NCBI GenBank assembly: GCA_943788055.1
Contig: CALSOU010000008.1
Location: forward strand, 124,001 to 188,000
DNA from: an uncultured Saprospiraceae bacterium
Lineage (GTDB): Bacteria > Bacteroidota > Bacteroidia > Chitinophagales > Saprospiraceae
Length of the DNA stretch: 64,000 nt
Reading direction: 5' to 3'
In this document: positions 27,479 through 37,000 of the stretch, one piece after another
Numbering within the stretch: the stretch's first letter is position 1
Layout: the number at the start of each line of letters is the position of its first letter
Program-made: the position numbers and the translations under genes
The notes under the pieces: model-generated
Seen by the model: only the letters and a program-made list of their open reading frames with translations
Database searches by the model: none
Told to the model about the DNA's origin: nothing

Positions 27479-28408
27479 TTATTTTTCCGTCAACTCTACC
27501 AAATCAGAATTTTCGATAGAAGGATAAAAATCTAGATAAGGTTCCAAACGCTTTATTTGATCTTGATTTATCCCTTTTATTTTAGCAATATCGCCAAGCC
27601 CTGAAAAATCTCCGTGATGCTTGCGATAACGTATTATTCGTTTTGCCTCTTTCCAGTACAAGTAAGGATGTCTTCCTAATTCATCTTGACTTGCCACGTT
27701 CACCTTAATTTTCTTATATGGTTTCGCTTCAATCAAAAGATGTTCGAATGTTTGGTAAAGCGAATCCGTGATACCGTATACCTCCTTTAACTGTTCCCTA
27801 CTGTGGAAACCACCAAGCCAAGTTTGATACTTGATAATTCTTTCTGCATATGTTGGACCTATTCCCCTTAGAGTTTTCCACTCAGCAGCTTCTTTAGAAT
27901 TAATTGAAATCGGCTCACTTGCCTGTCTTTTATACTGGTACTTTTGTGCTTGATCCTTTTTGGCTGTGCTTTCTTTATTCCAGATTCTTCTGATGTCTTT
28001 CTTCTTGTTTTTTCGAAGAGATGAAGCTGAAATTTCATTAGAGCCATCGTGTTTGGTTTTTGAATTCTTGAGACTCAAATCCTCTTTCTGATTCACTTTA
28101 AGCTGACTCTTAACATTATTATTTTGACTAACTACTTTCGATGAGGACCCGCTTGGTAAACTTGCCGTATTTATTTGGGAAAAAGCCTTTCCCTTATTAC
28201 TAGGATTCTTGTCTCGATAATCTGATTTTTGATGTGAATGATAGTCTTCGCCTTGCATTCCACTTTCCATCGCGATATTCAAGTTTGCCTTTGAAGGTAG
28301 CATTCTCTTCTGTATAAAAATAAATGTGCAAAAGAGTACAAGTAAAAAGCATAATAGGAACAAGCCATTTCTTTCTTCGTAGTTAAAATAGTTCATTTGT
28401 TTTTTCAT
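27479..28408 (-). CDS. Membrane-anchored helix-hairpin-helix protein, ComEA-like
   Basis: The 309-residue product has a single N-terminal membrane anchor (about 15-32, LFLLCFLLVLFCTFIFI), a long Ser/Lys/Asn-rich linker (about 40-165), and tandem helix-hairpin-helix motifs near the C-terminus: LRGIGPTYAERIIKYQ, FHSREQLKEVYGI and ASQDELGRHPYLYWKEAKRII...FSGLGDIAKIKGI. This layout resembles ComEA, the DNA receptor of natural transformation. It is 63 bases downstream of the ComEC gene on the same strand, which supports a DNA-uptake role, although many Bacteroidota carry this pair without demonstrated competence. Confidence 0.82.
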   Translation of the reverse strand: MKKQMNYFNYEERNGLFLLCFLLVLFCTFIFIQKRMLPSKANLNIAMESGMQGEDYHSHQKSDYRDKNPSNKGKAFSQINTASLPSGSSSKVVSQNNNVKSQLKVNQKEDLSLKNSKTKHDGSNEISASSLRKNKKKDIRRIWNKESTAKKDQAQKYQYKRQASEPISINSKEAAEWKTLRGIGPTYAERIIKYQTWLGGFHSREQLKEVYGITDSLYQTFEHLLIEAKPYKKIKVNVASQDELGRHPYLYWKEAKRIIRYRKHHGDFSGLGDIAKIKGINQDQIKRLEPYLDFYPSIENSDLVELTEK

Positions 28409-28471: not shown

Positions 28472-30418
28472 TTAAATTGCGATAACAAGAGCTTCTTTTC
28501 GTCGAAGTGGATAATCATTGTCCAAATGCTGATTGAATCCGTAATCAATTATTTGCCTAGCGTCTGGAATTTTATCTTCCACTTGAATTTTTCTATTGAT
28601 TAGTAATAGATCAAGTGTATCTGATTGAAAGGAAGGTTTTGACGTATTCCAGATACCCAATTGGAACTTTCCAATTTGAATTTCTAGATCGTGTCTGGAG
28701 TCGACTTCGTAGTCTTGAGCATTGTCGACGCCTAGTTTGTTACGCATAGAGCTTCTAACAAAGGGCAACTTTTTGGCTTTCGTACCTTTTTCCACAAGTC
28801 CCATCAAAACTCCAGATTGAACTATATCTATCATGACGTCTTTGCTATCTGCGTAACAAATAATGTGATTTTGATTGTGTATAGAGTTGTAATGGAATTG
28901 TGAACCTAGCAATACTAAATAAGCTATTACAAAAGCAGTCAAATAGCTCTTTTTTCTAGTTAGGTAAAAAGTAGAAATACTAATTAAGGCAATATAGTAA
29001 AGTACTATTTCAGGCTGTGATGGGAAAAGATTAGCTAGCATCATTCCTTCTCGATTGGCTAGCAGCTGAAGAAATTCTAGAAAGGAAAGACTAAACCAAT
29101 CAAGCAATTCAAGCACAAAATTGATTCCAAATAGAGACTCCAAAAAAAGGCCTAGTAAGCTGATAGTTATCATCAAAAAGGTAGCAGGAATTGCAATGAC
29201 TGACGCTGGAATAAACAGCAGTGGAAATTCATGGAAATAATAGAGGCTTAGTGGCATCAAGGTCAACTGGGCTGATATGCTCAAGACAACCATCTGCCAA
29301 ATTCTATCTGACAATCCGCGTAAGACTAACGCACTATAAATCAATTCGTAAAAGAACAGAATTCCTATTATGGCAAGAAATGAAAATTGAAATCCTATAT
29401 CATAAATCCATGATGGATTCCATAGCAACATAAAAAAGCCCGACATAAAACAAAAGTTATAAGACATGCCTTTAATGTTGAAAGCTCGACCAAGCATGAA
29501 GCTGCTCACCATAATACTTGCTCTTAAGGTTGACGCAGCCATTCCTGATACTAGACAAAACAACCACACACCCAAAATAATTAAGAAACACTTCAGCCAA
29601 GACAGTCTGCTAGGAATCCAAAAAAGTAAAAAGTGAAGCAAGGTTGCTATAATTCCAACATGTAAACCTGATATAGCCAATACATGAGATGTACCCGTTG
29701 AGCGGAAAACATCACTCATTGATTTCAACTTCGATTTATCACCAAGTAACATTGCCTGGCTTAGCACTTTGGCATCCTCTGAAATTTGAAGTGAATTAAT
29801 ATATCTAAGGCTCTCCGCTCTGATTCTTTGTAAGAAACTCTGATGCGATGCAGAAACAGTAATTTCATTTACAAAAGCCTGAAAGTATATTCCCTTCCTA
29901 GCGAGAAACGAACTATAGTCGAAAGCATAGGGGTTCTTGATGGTTTCAATCGAATCTATAGAAGCTAAAAAGTGTAGGTGATCTCCTTCTTTGACATCTT
30001 GTATTGGTGTAATGACTTTCAGCAAACCGTCAGCACTTACTTTGGTGTGTTCTAGTTCGACTGAACTAACATTTACAGTAATCTGAGCATACGAGTTACT
30101 ACCTGCAATTTCAACTGCTTCACCTTCGAAATAAAGCGCTTGATCATCTATATAATTGGAAAAGTGGCCGCGATCGAAATCTAGAGTATGCAATTCGGCA
30201 GAGATCATGCCCAATACAAAGCAAAATAGGATGCTCGAATAGCCAAACATCGGAATTGCTAATAACCACTTTTGAATACAGATCTTACTGCTTACTATAC
30301 CGAGAAGTGCTATAATGATAACTACCACTTTGGCATATGTGAATCCCGGACAATAAGCATTTACGAGAATCCCTAGAATTAGCGATACGAACAATCGTAA
30401 AAAAGGAATTTTTCTCAT
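28472..30418 (-). CDS. ComEC/Rec2-family competence channel protein
   Basis: Inner-membrane channel for single-stranded DNA in natural transformation. The 648 residues have membrane segments at the N-terminus (9-65), a DUF4131-like periplasmic region (about 80-200), and the competence domain with ISGLHVGIIATLLHF, GMAASTLRASIMVSSFMLGR and WIYDIGFQFSFLAIIGILFFYE. The C-terminal metallo-beta-lactamase domain of longer ComEC proteins is missing, as in most Bacteroidota members; the last 130 residues are a short soluble tail. It is upstream of the ComEA-like gene. Confidence 0.9.
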   Translation of the reverse strand: MRKIPFLRLFVSLILGILVNAYCPGFTYAKVVVIIIALLGIVSSKICIQKWLLAIPMFGYSSILFCFVLGMISAELHTLDFDRGHFSNYIDDQALYFEGEAVEIAGSNSYAQITVNVSSVELEHTKVSADGLLKVITPIQDVKEGDHLHFLASIDSIETIKNPYAFDYSSFLARKGIYFQAFVNEITVSASHQSFLQRIRAESLRYINSLQISEDAKVLSQAMLLGDKSKLKSMSDVFRSTGTSHVLAISGLHVGIIATLLHFLLFWIPSRLSWLKCFLIILGVWLFCLVSGMAASTLRASIMVSSFMLGRAFNIKGMSYNFCFMSGFFMLLWNPSWIYDIGFQFSFLAIIGILFFYELIYSALVLRGLSDRIWQMVVLSISAQLTLMPLSLYYFHEFPLLFIPASVIAIPATFLMITISLLGLFLESLFGINFVLELLDWFSLSFLEFLQLLANREGMMLANLFPSQPEIVLYYIALISISTFYLTRKKSYLTAFVIAYLVLLGSQFHYNSIHNQNHIICYADSKDVMIDIVQSGVLMGLVEKGTKAKKLPFVRSSMRNKLGVDNAQDYEVDSRHDLEIQIGKFQLGIWNTSKPSFQSDTLDLLLINRKIQVEDKIPDARQIIDYGFNQHLDNDYPLRRKEALVIAI

Positions 30419-30905
30419 GACAAAAAGTGTTTTCTCTACAAAAAAATTTGAAAAGACAATTCCTACATTAGTTGTCTTTCCTATTAGTGTAATGAATTAG
30501 CTTTTTGTCCCCTCCCAGATGGAATTTTCTGATAAAAAAATTCAATAGTCAATATCTATGGGGATTCAAAAGGATAAAATAATTTGTCTAATTTGGAATA
30601 AAATTGAAGACACGTACCCAAATTGCATGGCTTCATCTACAGATTATGTGGGACTTAGGAGCAGACGAATGGGTGAAATCCAACTTCAATTGGCTAGCAT
30701 TCACGAAAACAGTGTACAAATACATACTTCGTCTTTTGGCGAAAGCCCTCATCATGAAACACTAAACTGTCGAATACAAAGAACCAGAAACTAGTTTGGA
30801 AGTCCTTCTTAACTCTAGAATCGTGGGTAAAAACCAAAATTACGAGGAGAAAATTAGCTTCTTACACAAAAAAAGACCAATTTTATAACGAACAAAGCCG
30901 AAGAT
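30419..30905. other. Gene-poor divergent region upstream of comEC and the OmpA-like gene
   Basis: Two overlapping frames occur. The frame 30558-30794 (78 codons) has a composition unlike a real protein. In another frame, 30604-30765 encodes a tryptophan-rich stretch (IAWLHLQIMWDLGADEW, then NFNWLAFTKTVYKYI) that looks more protein-like and may be a gene remnant, but it has no good start codon and no family match could be made. No clear promoter box was found. Confidence 0.35.
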
Positions 30906-31625
30906 ATGCGAGCAGTCTATTTGATCATTTGGGCAATTCTGACCGTATTGCTTTGCTATTTTTTGTACGAGCAAAACGACAATAATAATTTGCTTTCAAA
31001 TATAGAAACAACAAGCCAATCACTATCAACCCAAGCTGAGAAATCAAGTTTAGATAGTCCTATTATTGATGATGACTTCTTTGAGGCGAATGAAACTACT
31101 GAGGTTTCGATGACAGATACTATGGAAGTCTCCAGTCTATCAAACTCTGATAATCAGGGTAGCAAAAGCAATAACCTCGGAGAGGCATCAAACGGTGATG
31201 ATCAGGAGGAATTGCAAGTCAGCGAGGGCTATAGTTTAAAAGAAGATAATTATACGACTGCTGCTAGAGCAGATGACTTTCTTCAAAAAGCATATATCGA
31301 GTTTAGACAAAATAGTATGACACTTCCCACAATGGAAGATCTTGAAGAATATATGGATTCTCTTGCTCAGGTGGTTGTGTCAAATGACCTAAAAATAGTG
31401 GTGGAAGGTCATGCTGATAAATCAAAATCTAGGCATTATGATAATTTTGAAGTTGCTCAGAAAAGGGCGGACTTTATCAAGAATGCATTACTGAGCCGAG
31501 GAATCCCAGACGAAAGAATTGAATTAATATCTAGAGGAGATACAATGCCTCGTATGGTTATAGAATCATCAGATACTAAGAAAAACAATAGACGTGTCGA
31601 ATTATTTATTAAACAAAACATCTGA
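30906..31625 (+). CDS. OmpA-family peptidoglycan-associating protein, membrane-anchored
   Basis: The 239 residues consist of an uncleaved N-terminal membrane helix (about 4-21), a long acidic Ser/Asp/Asn-rich linker (25-125), and a C-terminal OmpA domain (about 130-239). The latter shows IVVEGHADKSKSRHYDNFEVAQKRADFI and KKNNRRVELFI, equivalent to the family's peptidoglycan-contact motifs. It lacks a barrel, so it is more like a MotB-type inner-membrane anchor than an OmpA porin. It ends three bases before the AT-hook/HhH gene, indicating co-transcription and probably a joint role. Confidence 0.82.
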   Translation: MRAVYLIIWAILTVLLCYFLYEQNDNNNLLSNIETTSQSLSTQAEKSSLDSPIIDDDFFEANETTEVSMTDTMEVSSLSNSDNQGSKSNNLGEASNGDDQEELQVSEGYSLKEDNYTTAARADDFLQKAYIEFRQNSMTLPTMEDLEEYMDSLAQVVVSNDLKIVVEGHADKSKSRHYDNFEVAQKRADFIKNALLSRGIPDERIELISRGDTMPRMVIESSDTKKNNRRVELFIKQNI

Positions 31626-31628
31626 TAG

Positions 31629-32744
31629 ATGGATATGATTTTTCTTGTAGAGATCACTCGAAATGGACTTTTAATAGCTGTTTTGTACGGTCTTGTGAGT
31701 TTTTTACTCGGAGCCTTATTTGGATATTCACTTAATTCAAAGTACAAACGACAAGTCGTTGAATTGGAGCGAGATCGTGTAAGGTTAAACTCCAACATCA
31801 GTAATCTTGAATCTGATTTAGAAGCGGCAAAAAAAGCAAGATCTAATGCTGATGGAGAAATTTCAATTCTTCATAACCAACTAAGAGATCGTGATAGTCG
31901 AATCCGAGAAGCGGAAGGTAAGATGTCACTATTTAAAAAGAAATTTGAAGAGGGATCAGCCAAAATTCAGGGAAAAGAAGTCAATACAACTTCTTCGAAA
32001 ACAGAGGCTGATCTTCCAGTTGGTGATCAGAAAACTGCCGAAGAGACGAAAGGGATAGGCAGTGAAATTTCCGAAGAAAATGTTTCTTTTATATCTTCCA
32101 AATCAATAAAGGCATTCAAGAAGATCACTTCCAACGAAGATCAAAAAAGAAAGAAAAAAAGCAAGAGTAAGAAATTAAAATCGAAAAAATCAGATAAATC
32201 AAAAGACGAAAACTCCACAAAGAAGAAGTCTGAAGTAAAACTCAAAAGAGGAAGGCCAAAGAAAGCTGAAGGTAAATCGAAAAAATCATCGAAAGAGCAA
32301 ATTACTGGCAAAGCGACAGAACCAAAAAAACGACGAGGCCGACCGAAAGGGTCAAAAAACAAAACAACAAAAGAATTGCCAACTAAGGCATCACCAACGG
32401 GCAAAACAAAGAGTAACCCAACTGACAAAGTCAACCCCACTCCCGAGAAAACTAGCAAGAGAGTAGCGGGAACGAGACGTCGTGGGAGAACTCCAGACGA
32501 TCTAAAGATCATAGAAGGAATAGGACCGAAAATGGAAGAAGCTTTAAGAAATGCAGGTGTGAAGACTTTTAGAAAAATGTCAACTATGACACCTGAAGCT
32601 ATAAAAGATATCCTTGTAAAGGCAAGTACCCGATATGGAATTGCTCAGACGGAAACATGGCCGGAACAAGCCAAATTAGCAAGTTCGAAAGACTTTGAAG
32701 CTCTCAAGACCCTGCAAGATTCCCTTAATAGAGGCGTAAAGTAA
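31629..32744 (+). CDS. Membrane-anchored coiled-coil protein with AT-hooks and C-terminal helix-hairpin-helix
   Basis: The 371-residue product combines unusual parts: a membrane helix (about 13-33), a coiled coil (about 38-112, LERDRVRLNSNISNLESDLE), a lysine-rich segment (170-205), two AT-hook cores (KRGRP at 206-210, RRGRPKG at 235-241) with a related RRRGR at 283-287, and a C-terminal helix-hairpin-helix domain (about 289-345, DDLKIIEGIGPKMEEALRNAG). The AT-hooks and HhH predict DNA binding by the cytoplasmic part, if the N-terminus is the anchor. It lies three bases after the OmpA-like gene and before an intrinsic terminator. Function unknown; an envelope-to-nucleoid link is a hypothesis. 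Confidence 0.8.
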   Translation: MDMIFLVEITRNGLLIAVLYGLVSFLLGALFGYSLNSKYKRQVVELERDRVRLNSNISNLESDLEAAKKARSNADGEISILHNQLRDRDSRIREAEGKMSLFKKKFEEGSAKIQGKEVNTTSSKTEADLPVGDQKTAEETKGIGSEISEENVSFISSKSIKAFKKITSNEDQKRKKKSKSKKLKSKKSDKSKDENSTKKKSEVKLKRGRPKKAEGKSKKSSKEQITGKATEPKKRRGRPKGSKNKTTKELPTKASPTGKTKSNPTDKVNPTPEKTSKRVAGTRRRGRTPDDLKIIEGIGPKMEEALRNAGVKTFRKMSTMTPEAIKDILVKASTRYGIAQTETWPEQAKLASSKDFEALKTLQDSLNRGVK

Positions 32745-32770
32745 TACTTTCTTATAGCCGTATGAAAGTG

Positions 32771-32793
32771 AAGACCTATTCTTGTAGGTCTTT
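32771..32793 (+). terminator. Terminator after the OmpA / AT-hook gene pair
   Basis: AAGACCTA and TAGGTCTT form a perfect 8-bp stem around TTCTTG, followed by TCTGTATACTTTT; 27 bases after the stop codon. Confidence 0.65.
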
Positions 32794-32798
32794 CTGTA

Positions 32799-32806
32799 TA
32801 CTTTTG
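32799..32806 (+). promoter_or_regulatory. Candidate -7 box for the 168-residue membrane protein gene
   Basis: TACTTTTG matches TAnnTTTG, six bases after the preceding terminator and 43 bases before the ATG at 32849. Confidence 0.4.
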
Positions 32807-32848
32807 CCCATTTCCAAAATCAAGTAGATATTCAGGCAAATTAATCCA

Positions 32849-33355
32849 ATGCCAACCAACAAAAACAAGCAATTCAAGGAAATACTCTTAGTTAGCAACC
32901 CCAGAAGTCCATATTCAATCTTGACAGCTCTTGTATTTCTACTTCTAATCGGTGGAAGTCTTATGCTCTTCTTGAAATATCAAGATAACATAGGTATCGC
33001 TGTAGCTTTATGTATAATTCCGTTGGTAATTGCTCTTTTTATGCTCAAATTACTTCTGTGGAATATGGGCGGAAAAGAGATTATACAAATCTCAACAGAT
33101 CAAACGAAAGTTCAAATGCAATACCCTGTGCTTTTTTCGCCTATGGTTCATCAAGAAAATAGTAGGATGAAATCGATGTTATTTAACTCCAACACTCACG
33201 CTGATCTGGTCAGACCTCAAGAGATACTCGAATTACGTTTATCAATTAGTTTATATAAGCTAAAACTTGAATTTGCAAACGGAGAAACGTATATGTCATC
33301 CATTAGTTTTGATCTCCAAGAAGCTCAGCGAATCGTTAATCTAATACGTTCCTAG
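32849..33355 (+). CDS. Two-helix membrane protein of unknown function, PH-like tail
   Basis: The 168-residue product has a basic N-terminus, two membrane helices (about 25-41 and 46-70) and a soluble C-terminal half of alternating strands (GKEIIQISTDQTKVQMQYPVLFS, LELRLSISLYKLKLEFANGETYMSSISF, ending in a helix). That order resembles bacterial PH-like (YcxB/DUF304-type) proteins; the assignment is tentative. Its last 15 bases overlap the end of the convergent 693-residue membrane protein gene. Confidence 0.6.
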   Translation: MPTNKNKQFKEILLVSNPRSPYSILTALVFLLLIGGSLMLFLKYQDNIGIAVALCIIPLVIALFMLKLLLWNMGGKEIIQISTDQTKVQMQYPVLFSPMVHQENSRMKSMLFNSNTHADLVRPQEILELRLSISLYKLKLEFANGETYMSSISFDLQEAQRIVNLIRS

Positions 33356-35422
33356 AAGCCTTCTAGCAAACCATTCGATCAACAGAAAACCTACTAATAC
33401 AAATAAAATCCACTTAATGTTGAGAGCCGATTCAGTCTTGATTGCAGAGTAGATAATTGGTTTTAATGCTGATTGTTCCTTGAGAGCTGTAACAATTGCA
33501 TCAGTTGATTCATCATAAAATACCTGTCCTCCATACTTTGTATTTATGTTTCGTAGCAAACTATGATTTGCAGTAGTATTGGCCAATTCCAATTGGACAT
33601 CTTCGATGCTAAATCCACCGCTTGACGTCAGTGGCTGACCATTGTAATTAGTTGTCCCGGTAAAAGTATAATTTCCTGCTGGCAGAATTCCTGCATCAAG
33701 TTGATAGAAGTCTGAAACTTTTGAAAATATGTATTCATACTCTTTACCATCTTGATCTTTTACTTTCAAAAACGCATCAGCTTCATTGACTTTTTCGTAT
33801 GTATCATTGTAGAGCTCTGCATCAAAACCTACCTTATCATAGGTTTTGTACACATTATTTTTACTACTTACTCTGAATTTACGCTTATCCTCCTTGATCG
33901 TTACAAATTGAATGGTTTTTGAAAATAATTCGTTTATTTCGTCGAACCTATTTTTTTGTAGATAATTATAAAGGCGCCATTGCCATATACCCTCACCTAC
34001 AATCACCGCCTCACGCAGATCAGATTGATTTCGCAGAACCCACAGAGGATATTCAGTTTCGACTTCGCCAATCTTCTGATTCAGTAGAACTCTCGTATTT
34101 GGATCCACTTTAAACGAACCAAATTTTGCTTTCAATGGAGGATAGTCCTCAACAATATTTTGAATTCCCTCGTCTATTTCAAAAACGTTAAACCCTCCAG
34201 CTAATTTTGCCTGAACATCATTTGTACTTTGAGTATTTGCCCCTATGCTCATCGCCTTTTGTGCACGATTAAATGCAGGAATGTCTATCTGAGTACCAGC
34301 GATAAACATTCGAGGTTTGTTAAGTCGATTTAGAGTACTAAGCACATTGGAAACATTATACCTTCTACTTGGTAAGTTGTGAAACATTACAAGATCAAAG
34401 CTTGTGAGATTAGCTGGTGTATCTTTTGCAAATGCTATTTCAACTTGATAATTTTTGTTGGACTCAATCATTTTTTTGATCGCAGCAATATCTGGATGCG
34501 GGCTATTGCCCAAAAGCAAAATCTTCTGCCTTGCGTCCAAAATATCAACTATAAAGGAAGTAGTATTATTTTTTGTGCTAAACTCACCACTCCTCTGATC
34601 CACAGATAAAATATACTTGACGATACCTACTTGATCAGCAGGGACCTCAAAACTCAGAGTAGTAAAAAATCTTTCTCCTTTAATTGAAAAGGCTTGTTTA
34701 TCCACTAAAATCCGTTGACCTCCTTGATCTCTATAAAGATTGATACTTGTATTGCTAGCGTTGAAATTAAAAGCTTGCACATCAGCCTGGACGACAAACT
34801 TATCTCCGAGATAGGCGATCTTATTTTGGTAAACATGTTTTATGGATATATCCTTCTTCTGAGTTGTGTCACCCTGCGCCAAAAAATACACAGGAGAAAT
34901 AATATTCGTTCGTTGATAAATCGGATTTTGCCCTTCGTTATAAATACCATCTGAACTGACTATTATAGCTCCCAGATTCTGATTAGCATATGTCTCGTCT
35001 ATAAATTCAAACACTTGTGAAAGATTACTTGCTCCGCCATCTATTGAATCAGAAAATCCTTCATGAATGGAATTGTCGTAGTGATACGTTTCAACTTGAA
35101 ATTCTTTACCTAGTTCGTCATTAATATCTTGCAGTTTAGAAATCACTTCCGTCTCGTTTGCCACTGAGCTAGATGCATCTTGAAATATTACGACAGTCGG
35201 ATTCTTAATCTCTTCATTGTTTAGTTTCAAAAGAGGTCCCAACAACATGAATGAAATTCCAAAAATGGACAAAAACCTTAGCACGGCCAAAAGCCATGGT
35301 TTCCAGTAAGAATGATCTTTAAAACGAGCATCTCTATAGTATAGAAACCCCGCATAGACCAAACCTGTAAGAACACAAAAAAAGATACACCAAACTGGAT
35401 ATTGTAACGAAAAATTATCCAA
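33341..35422 (-). CDS. Membrane protein with von Willebrand factor A-like periplasmic domain
   Basis: The 693 residues have two N-terminal membrane helices (about 8-27 and 42-62), a region that starts PTVVIFQDASSSVANETE, in which DxSxS fits a MIDAS metal site, and one C-terminal membrane helix (about 670-687, WILFVLVGFLLIEWFARR). The middle holds a segment like a class I amidotransferase-fold module (ILLLGNSPHPDIAAIKKMIE). This architecture is known in Bacteroidota as conserved BatA-like or DUF4159-related membrane proteins of unknown role, often near aerotolerance genes; none are adjacent here. Monocistronic. Confidence 0.7.
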   Translation of the reverse strand: MDNFSLQYPVWCIFFCVLTGLVYAGFLYYRDARFKDHSYWKPWLLAVLRFLSIFGISFMLLGPLLKLNNEEIKNPTVVIFQDASSSVANETEVISKLQDINDELGKEFQVETYHYDNSIHEGFSDSIDGGASNLSQVFEFIDETYANQNLGAIIVSSDGIYNEGQNPIYQRTNIISPVYFLAQGDTTQKKDISIKHVYQNKIAYLGDKFVVQADVQAFNFNASNTSINLYRDQGGQRILVDKQAFSIKGERFFTTLSFEVPADQVGIVKYILSVDQRSGEFSTKNNTTSFIVDILDARQKILLLGNSPHPDIAAIKKMIESNKNYQVEIAFAKDTPANLTSFDLVMFHNLPSRRYNVSNVLSTLNRLNKPRMFIAGTQIDIPAFNRAQKAMSIGANTQSTNDVQAKLAGGFNVFEIDEGIQNIVEDYPPLKAKFGSFKVDPNTRVLLNQKIGEVETEYPLWVLRNQSDLREAVIVGEGIWQWRLYNYLQKNRFDEINELFSKTIQFVTIKEDKRKFRVSSKNNVYKTYDKVGFDAELYNDTYEKVNEADAFLKVKDQDGKEYEYIFSKVSDFYQLDAGILPAGNYTFTGTTNYNGQPLTSSGGFSIEDVQLELANTTANHSLLRNINTKYGGQVFYDESTDAIVTALKEQSALKPIIYSAIKTESALNIKWILFVLVGFLLIEWFARRLLGTY

Positions 35423-35721: not shown

Positions 35722-37000
35722 ATGAAGAAGTGGATATTTTTACTGGTTGTGTTTAGTGTCGTCGGCTACCAAGCGATGGGTTCTTACATTCTTTTGCCCA
35801 TGGACAGCGAAAAGCAACGCGATCATCTCAAAGCATACGGTCTGACATATTGGGTATTAACCCAAGAAGTAGAGACTTACTGGTTGTTAAATTACCGAGG
35901 TGGAAGCTTTGCATTCGCTCACAATCCTAGATTTGAATCAGAATGTAAAATCAGGGGAATAAGTTATGAAGTAATACCAAATGTAAAGTTTGGTCTTATT
36001 CGACAACAAATAGCAAATCCAGAAGTCAATCAAGAAGTTATTAAACTTGAAAAAGCACCAAAAATAGCTGTATATACACCGGATTTTAATGCCAAAGGCG
36101 AGAAAATACAACCTTGGGATGATGCAGTAACTATGGTTCTCACCTATGCAGAAATACCGTACGAAACGGTCTACGATCGTGAGGTCCTAGAAGATAAGCT
36201 CGTTCAATACGATTGGCTTCATTTACATCATGAAGATTTCACTGGTCAATATGGTAAATTCTACGCTAGTCAACATACAAAACCTTGGTATAGAGCCAAC
36301 CAGCAGAAGATGGAGAGTCTTGCGACTTCTTTAAGATTTAATAAAGTTTCCCAGTTGAAATTGGCTGTAGCCAAAAAAATTAAAGAATATGTTGAAGGTG
36401 GTGGATTCATGTTTGCGATGTGTTCTGCTACCGATTCATATGATATTGCTTTAGCAGCAGAAGGTCACGATATTTGCCATAACGTATACGATGGCGACGG
36501 AGCTGATCCCAACGCTCAGAGTAAGCTCGATTTTTCAAAAACCTTTGCTTTTCAAGACTTTGATCTTATTTCTGATCCGATGACGTACGAATTTTCGAGC
36601 ATAGACAACCGGAATCGAAAGACTCAAGCTGAAAATGATTATTTTACTCTTTTTGACTTTTCAGCCAAATGGGATCCAATACCTACAATGTTAACCCCAA
36701 AACCACACTAGAACAATAAAGGGTTTCATGGGTCAAACTACCTCATTTAAGAAGCAATACGTGAAATCGGATGTTCTGATACTGGGTGAATCCAAGTCTG
36801 ATAACGAGGTTCGTTTTATTCACAGTGAACAGGGATATGGAACTTGGACATTTTACGGTGGTCATGATCCAGAGGACTACAGGCACTATGTGAATGATCC
36901 TGAAACAGATCTTAGTTTGCATCCAAATTCGCCCGGATATCGGTTAATTCTAAACAACATTCTATTCCCAGCAGCTGAAAAAAAGAAACGTAAAACATAG
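35722..37000 (+). CDS. Conserved exported Bacteroidota protein (often labelled asparagine synthetase B), one apparent frameshift
   Basis: The open frame stops at 36711, but a run of four C at 36695-36698 appears one base too long. With three C the frame runs on through MLTQNHTRTIKGFMGQTTSF to 37000, giving 425 residues. A signal peptide (1-20) precedes SYILLPMDSEKQRDHLKAYG and WLLNYRGGSFAFA. Later come KIAVYTPDF, WLHLHHEDFTGQYGK, KIKEYVEGGGFMFAMCSATDS and YGTWTFYGGHDPED. Databases often call such proteins asparagine synthetase B, but none of the synthetase or glutaminase motifs are visible, so that name is not adopted. The central part resembles a ThuA/amidotransferase-like Rossmann fold. It is followed 8 bases later by the thioredoxin-like gene. 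Confidence 0.72.

Follow-up and report, generated by a model that had tools for sequence, protein, structure and literature searches.

A gene for an OmpA-domain protein and a gene for a membrane-anchored protein with a coiled coil, AT-hooks and a helix-hairpin-helix (HHH) domain form a conserved pair, homologous to a general OmpA/HHH module of Saprospiraceae, in the window analysed here, a stretch of 64,000 nucleotides from an uncultured member of this family (genome label G000; 3.0 Mb in 13 contigs). Our preferred reading, to which we give slightly less than an even chance, is that the two products may act as a tether between peptidoglycan, the inner membrane and the nucleoid, derived from a general wall-to-cytoplasm module of the family. 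The interpretation is narrowed to a conserved pair whose DNA-binding equipment is seen only in one genus, with the HHH domain neutral as evidence.

Organization of the gene pair and its surroundings

The two open reading frames lie on the same strand (+) and are separated by an intergenic gap of 3 bases. Both the order and the exact coordinates agree with the initial annotation. The features of the region are as follows.

30906-31625, +: OmpA-domain protein with an uncleaved N-terminal signal anchor, 239 aa (Pfam, AlphaFold, motif scan)
30912-30968, +: transmembrane anchor within the OmpA protein, roughly residues 3-21 (hydropathy; AlphaFold helix 2-30; no lipobox/AXA)
30975-31265, +: acidic linker, residues 24-120, net -18, mostly predicted disordered
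31302-31589, +: OmpA peptidoglycan-binding domain, residues 133-228 (PF00691, 4.3e-15; alignment)
31629-32744, +: membrane-anchored coiled-coil/AT-hook/HHH protein, 371 aa
31665-31724, +: transmembrane helix flanked by acidic (N-side) and basic (C-side) residues, predicted N-out, C-in (hydropathy/charge)
31737-31964, +: predicted coiled coil, residues 37-112 (heptad power; alignment)
32121-32495, +: Lys/Arg-rich segment, residues 165-289, net +36 (charge count)
32244-32258, +: AT-hook core 1, KRGRP, residues 206-210 (motif; genus alignment)
32331-32345, +: AT-hook core 2, RRGRP followed by KGSKNK, residues 235-239 (motif; genus alignment)
32496-32741, +: C-terminal HHH domain, residues 290-371 (AlphaFold, Pfam, fold comparison)
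32770-32793, +: 10-bp hairpin downstream of the genes, a possible terminator whose T tail is poor
32849-33355, +: small membrane protein, 168 aa, possible third member; homologue downstream in 4/4 genus genomes

The shared terminator that had been proposed to enclose the pair is partly borne out: the 10-bp hairpin is present 3' of the second gene (region z -2.7), but its T tail is broken and the terminator scan has no entry for it. The small membrane protein that follows has homologues in the genus at E values of 1e-13, 1e-11 and 4e-8 and no Pfam or NCBIfam family, and it is a possible third member of the gene group. The comEA and comEC genes are divergent neighbours of the pair, the former (27479-28408) matching the HHH_3 and comE models; homologues of both, and of a neighbour of 693 aa, adjoin the pair in G043 and in Saprospiraceae bacterium MAG-195 (L004). 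The Bacteroidota-type promoter pattern was not found at the pair (5 occurrences in the window, with 3.7 expected), and an Rfam scan of positions 30300-33500 returned no match. Further downstream, the window frames 35722-36711 and 36728-37000 correspond to a single 425-aa frame in L004 (9195-10472), reflecting a frameshift or an assembly error.

The OmpA-domain protein

The first product consists of a short basic N-terminus, one hydrophobic helix, a linker of 97 residues and the OmpA domain, whose match to PF00691 (56.3 bits) is well above the cut-off of 27.2. In the AlphaFold model, a helix at residues 2-30 is followed by disorder at 32-121 and then by the OmpA fold. Neither a lipobox (residues 1-45) nor an AXA motif (residues 11-45) was found in the window protein or in its genus orthologues L004 and L068, which together with the N-terminal helix of the model supports the uncleaved membrane anchor described in the initial annotation. 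Among 35 Bacteroidota OmpA partners, L004 included, lipobox-like matches occurred in 2 and AXA-like matches in 8.

Residues D171 and R187 of the window protein occupy conserved columns in an alignment of 21 rows, at positions that, based on work with OmpA and Pal, we take to bind diaminopimelate; the aspartate is lost in 2 of the 21 partners, the genus orthologue L068 and L043. The domain and these residues suggest that the protein would bind peptidoglycan. Its identification as a Pal lipoprotein was rejected, as the protein has no lipobox and scores 55.6 bits with TIGR02802 (cut-off 125.35), and so was a MotB or flagellar stator identity, with 45.7 bits for PRK08457 (cut-off 250) and other MotB-type models far below their cut-offs.

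The AT-hook protein

The second product has an acidic N-terminus and a hydrophobic helix at about residues 13-32, followed by a proline-free stretch (residues 37-112) with a heptad period that was equally strong in 2 of 20,000 shuffles. AT-hooks are a motif of the DNA minor groove, with a core made of GRP flanked by K or R. The Lys/Arg-rich segment contains two sequences of this form, KRGRPKK and RRGRPKGSKNK, which align with cores in L004 and L068; at least two GRP were obtained in 189 of 200,000 shuffles of the segment. The Pfam AT-hook model PF02178 was unlisted up to an E value of 10 in the four genus copies, with search filters that drop weak short matches.

A single HHH domain lies after the AT-hook segment. 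It is modelled by AlphaFold with a pLDDT of 89.7 and scores 21 bits with HHH_5 (PF14520), below the cut-off of 27, which is exceeded in one of the four genus copies (L068, 28.4). Each of the elements that the initial annotation had recognized in this protein, namely the membrane helix, the coiled coil, the two AT-hook cores and the HHH, is therefore seen, the last of these at the score just given. The ComEA-type HHH_3 and comE models of Pfam and NCBIfam gave no match in the AT-hook protein.

Predicted topology and charge

The charges flanking the membrane helices predict opposite topologies for the two proteins. The AT-hook protein has an N-flank of -1, a C-flank of +2 and a cytoplasmic part of net +40, and the OmpA protein an N-flank of +1, a C-flank of -3 and a periplasmic part of net -20. 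A periplasmic location of the basic segments, which had been named as an outcome that would speak against a link to the nucleoid, was thus not found, the predicted arrangement placing the basic tail in the cytoplasm and the OmpA domain in the periplasm.

A charge survey was conducted on 43 paired proteins, comprising those of the window and of L004 together with 41 from the remaining 42 adjacent loci (see below); L050 was left out because its frame is cut, and some of the frames included have over-extended starts. The C-flank of the HHH protein's helix was more positive than the N-flank in 30 of the 43, and the N-flank of the OmpA protein more positive than the C-flank in 34, with 6 ties, so that the charge rule is clear for the window pair and not uniform across pairs. 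The cytoplasmic part has a net charge of +40 in the window protein, of +61 in that of L004 and of -77 to +9 in the other 41 proteins. Strongly basic tails are thus seen only in the genus, and with 41 of 43 tails near-neutral or acidic, a basic module is not a defining feature of the pairing. AT-hooks were likewise found only in the genus among the paired HHH proteins examined.

Conservation and origin of the pair in the genus

The AT-hook protein is present in all four genus genomes examined (the window genome, G043, G144 and G199). Cores of the type [KRAP]GRP number 2 in the window protein and 6 in each of the other three; those preceded by K or R number 2 in the window, 6 in G043, 6 in G144 and 3 in G199. 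The proteins of G144 and L004 are identical over their 445 residues. The OmpA gene is found directly upstream in the three genomes whose contig reaches this far, at a gap of 3 bases in the window and in L004/G144 and of 9 bases in G043, the contig of G199 ending before the position of the gene.

Besides the AT-hook protein, G043, G144 and G199 carry an intact pair of the ordinary Saprospiraceae type, hereafter OmpA/HHH2. This pair resembles that of the window in its gene order, its OmpA anchor protein and its homologous partner with a membrane helix, a coiled coil and HHH. In contrast to the window pair, the ordinary partner typically has two HHH, no AT-hooks and a neutral or acidic tail, and the ordinary OmpA protein has an extra periplasmic segment that reads as a repeat of the OmpA-like motif. 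At the end of its contig C7, the window genome retains only a remnant of an ordinary pair (L114, about 100238-101295), with an OmpA part broken by in-frame stops and a membrane/coiled-coil part kept in a short frame. No HHH part of this remnant was detected by tblastn (E <= 10), and the rest of the window genome yielded no further HHH match. The broken state could, with lower probability, reflect an assembly error at the contig end.

In a tree of 30 HHH domains, the four AT-hook copies group together (99/97), with 14 of the 27 inner branches poorly supported. The HHH2 family profile matches the window AT-hook protein twice, at 4.8e-12 in its N-terminal part and 2.2e-25 in a later part. The window pair shares with the family a same-strand OmpA gene immediately upstream and a homologous membrane helix, coiled coil and HHH, but a single HHH stands in place of two. 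From these sequence comparisons, the AT-hook pair looks like a derived form of the family-wide OmpA/HHH pair.

A wider family of OmpA/HHH pairs

Used as the query against genome contigs, the window protein identified 64 loci, in which adjacency was defined as an OmpA gene on the same strand at a gap of -100 to 150 bases, using the OmpA domain alone as query. An OmpA gene is adjacent in 43 of these loci and, by reading, in two more, L026, whose HHH domains are separated by a stop codon, and L067, which has an over-extended frame. An OmpA-HHH fusion at L026 was considered and excluded by frame reading and by the search with the OmpA domain only. The 19 non-adjacent loci include Anaerolineae records, ATP-synthase-gamma fusions and the Saprospiraceae records L044, L051 and L052.

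The family itself was surveyed in 110 Saprospiraceae genomes with an HHH2 profile (E <= 1e-60) and an OmpA-partner profile (E <= 1e-40). The former gave 51 matches in 50 genomes and none at this threshold in the other 60, the window genome included. Upstream of 45 of the 51, on the same strand and contig, an OmpA-partner match was found. The spacing between paired profile matches is 18-123 bases in 33 cases and 327-1847 in 12; in these 12 the HHH2 match starts at model position 37 at the least, and part of the spacing is therefore the HHH protein itself. Failure of the two genes to co-occur in relatives had been put forward as a ground for giving up the initial interpretation; they do co-occur, in the three genus genomes with a reachable contig and for these 45 HHH2 matches in the family.

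There are 86 OmpA-partner matches altogether, of which 41 have no such HHH2 match on the contig, including three in G000 and G043. Inspection of 20 of the 41, from the upper part of the list, revealed a following HHH gene in 14 by script and in L167 by reading, and no HHH gene following in L151, L152, L157, L165 and L166. Across the phylum, the HHH2 profile gave no match at E 1e-40 in any of 296 genomes, a result that is uninformative, with at most about 7 candidates scored in each among the matches listed.

Pairs also occur outside the family. They are carried by the Flavobacteriaceae/Polaribacter records L031 and L034 and, with the OmpA gene upstream of the membrane-HHH gene, by the Gammaproteobacteria L022, L038 and L050, where BON domains were found in both of the proteins tested. 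The Thiotrichaceae locus L057 was rejected as a pair, its OmpA gene being 412 bases away and its HHH frame having no predicted membrane helix. In Catellatospora/Hamadaea (Micromonosporaceae; L061, L062 and L064-L067), the gene order is reversed; five of these pairs overlap by four bases, L067 likewise by reading, and the two partners tested both have BON plus OmpA domains. That the partnership exists in either gene order speaks for a functional link. Some paired membrane-HHH proteins have expanded HHH arrays, with seven HHH-like motifs in L041 (1407-4922, 1171 aa) and three each in L037 and L049.

The HHH domain and alternative functions

Tails of the same HHH domain were found on a range of proteins. 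Pfam-identified hosts include ribosomal proteins S1 (L002, in the window genome, and L131), L27 (L123 and L134) and S6 (L147 and L093), and the tail is also present on S16 (L073), where the HHH is visible in the sequence and unreported by Pfam. Other hosts are ATP synthase gamma (L047, Anaerolineae), NrfD (L141) and a protein with a glycogen-binding-like domain (L135). The sharing of this tail by ribosomal and energy-complex proteins is strange. With such hosts, the HHH is neither independent evidence nor proof of DNA binding. The initial annotation had one partner binding peptidoglycan and the other AT-rich DNA: the OmpA domain and the AT-hooks agree with it, but AT-rich DNA as a ligand rests on hooks that, as far as the paired HHH proteins examined show, occur only in the genus.

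A Foldseek comparison of the HHH model with the PDB was empty at E <= 0.001, and VIA returned folds of the RadA, Pol theta and NusA AR2 types with Z up to 8.2, a modest score that is not decisive. PDB sequence matches comprise Dinoroseobacter protein-O (E 5.4e-16), a complex I subunit and, weakly, uS13 (E 0.018). NusA AR2 is an HHH involved in protein contact, and its presence among the fold matches is in line with an adaptor working without nucleic acid, in which a wall-bound scaffold would recruit a cytoplasmic protein through the HHH and the basic tail would bind only acidic lipids or proteins. The neutral or acidic tails of the other 41 paired proteins favour this explanation, as does protein-O, which has a similar plan of membrane helix, loop and HHH inside RC-LH1 (PMC12079452, as far as the excerpt consulted goes). 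We regard it as unlikely, as it leaves unexplained the RGRP cores, with GSKNK after them, that are kept or multiplied in the genus.

The ribosomal hosts suggest another possibility, to which we give a slightly lower probability still, namely that the wall-anchored pair captures HHH-tailed ribosomes or RNA and that its basic hooks bind rRNA or mRNA. At E <= 1e-6 the only other HHH protein of the family in the window genome is ribosomal protein S1; a topoisomerase had been considered as the host of this tail and was discarded, the match being S1. An HHH match in an S1-sized frame (761-821 aa) occurs in 6 of the 7 genomes searched, and the two of these six that were tested with Pfam are S1. However, the tail on ATP synthase gamma, NrfD and the glycogen-binding-like protein argues that ribosomes are not the common partner, and AT-hooks are a motif for DNA.

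A role of the pair in competence is unlikely, and it seems very improbable that the tail is periplasmic and handles incoming DNA like ComEA, as the neighbouring comEA and comEC genes and their homologues beside the pair in L004 and G043 might suggest, given that the flanking charges predict a cytoplasmic tail, that the protein has no ComEA-type match and that, by reading, the ordinary pair of G144 has no competence-like gene among the listed surrounding ORFs.

A possible link between wall and nucleoid

As a tether between peptidoglycan, inner membrane and nucleoid, the pair could work as follows. The uncleaved anchor would hold the OmpA protein in the inner membrane, with the acidic, flexible linker crossing part of the periplasm and the OmpA domain binding peptidoglycan. 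The AT-hook protein, anchored by its helix in the opposite topology, would oligomerize through the coiled coil just beneath the membrane, and its long basic tail with the AT-hooks would bind AT-rich DNA in the minor groove, to which the HHH would contribute affinity or a protein contact. Direct contact between the two proteins would create an inner-membrane complex linking peptidoglycan to the nucleoid. The gain of AT-hooks may have turned a general OmpA/HHH module of Saprospiraceae into this DNA-linked pair.

Several observations are consistent with such a tether. The OmpA domain is well above its cut-off and has the residues at the ligand positions; hook-like cores occur in all four genus genomes, with six in three of them; and the window genome retains the AT-hook pair where the ordinary pair is a broken remnant. 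The signs of an uncleaved anchor, the flanking charges and the co-occurrence of the two genes in the genus and the wider family fit as well. Counting against it, the window copy has two cores rather than six, and three of those in G199 have no K or R before GRP. The unlisted Pfam AT-hook model, the HHH tails on non-DNA proteins, the near-neutral or acidic tails of the other 41 paired proteins, the uneven charge rule and the aspartate lost in two partners also weigh against it.

Comparison with known systems

The OmpA domain is shared with ArfA/OmpATb (Rv0899); when the OmpA alignment is compared with the PDB, Rv0899 structures come out among the best matches. BON-OmpA proteins of the Rv0899 type differ from the window protein, in which Pfam finds no BON domain. 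ComEA, whose gene is a near neighbour, resembles the AT-hook protein in having a membrane helix and HHH domains, but these are of the HHH_3 type and there are no AT-hooks; ComEA faces the periplasm. In the open-licence literature, neither an OmpA/HHH pair nor a membrane protein that has AT-hooks and a wall-binding partner was found among the matches listed. The initial annotation knew of no characterized system with exactly this pairing; the pairing is not unique to the locus, as a family-wide OmpA/HHH pair exists.

By analogy of working principle, the nearest relative found is Rv3852 of M. tuberculosis, a membrane-tethered DNA-binding protein that is reported to interact with Wag31 and to influence the synthesis of nascent peptidoglycan (PMC8233713, excerpt). 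It resembles the AT-hook protein in having a single helix as its membrane tether and in the DNA binding that is predicted for the latter; compared by description, it differs in the C-terminal position of the helix, and the excerpt mentions neither an OmpA partner gene nor an HHH or a coiled coil (PMC8233713). Dinoroseobacter protein-O (PDB 8yy9) shares N-terminal membrane helices, a long loop and a C-terminal HHH of the same family, but it has more than one membrane helix and is part of RC-LH1; the excerpt available describes neither an OmpA partner nor AT-hooks, and gives its function as unknown (PMC12079452).

How the nucleoid is positioned relative to the bacterial envelope is an open question. 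To our knowledge, few proteins could connect DNA to the cell wall. A broader reading, which is rather doubtful, is that of a two-protein inner-membrane bridge joining peptidoglycan to cytoplasmic macromolecules: its general HHH form would be common in Saprospiraceae, with counterparts in Gammaproteobacteria and Actinomycetota, and the genus form, refitted with an AT-hook array, would fasten the chromosome to the wall. As part of that same doubtful reading, the chromosome-to-wall bridge would be a loose analogue of the eukaryotic linkers between the nucleus and the outside. Were the DNA link to fail, the OmpA/HHH pair of the wider family, not met in the literature searched, would still be a conserved envelope module. 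With a conserved wall-binding half, a cytoplasmic half and one genus carrying a DNA-binding array, the link could be tested by simple genetics and microscopy.
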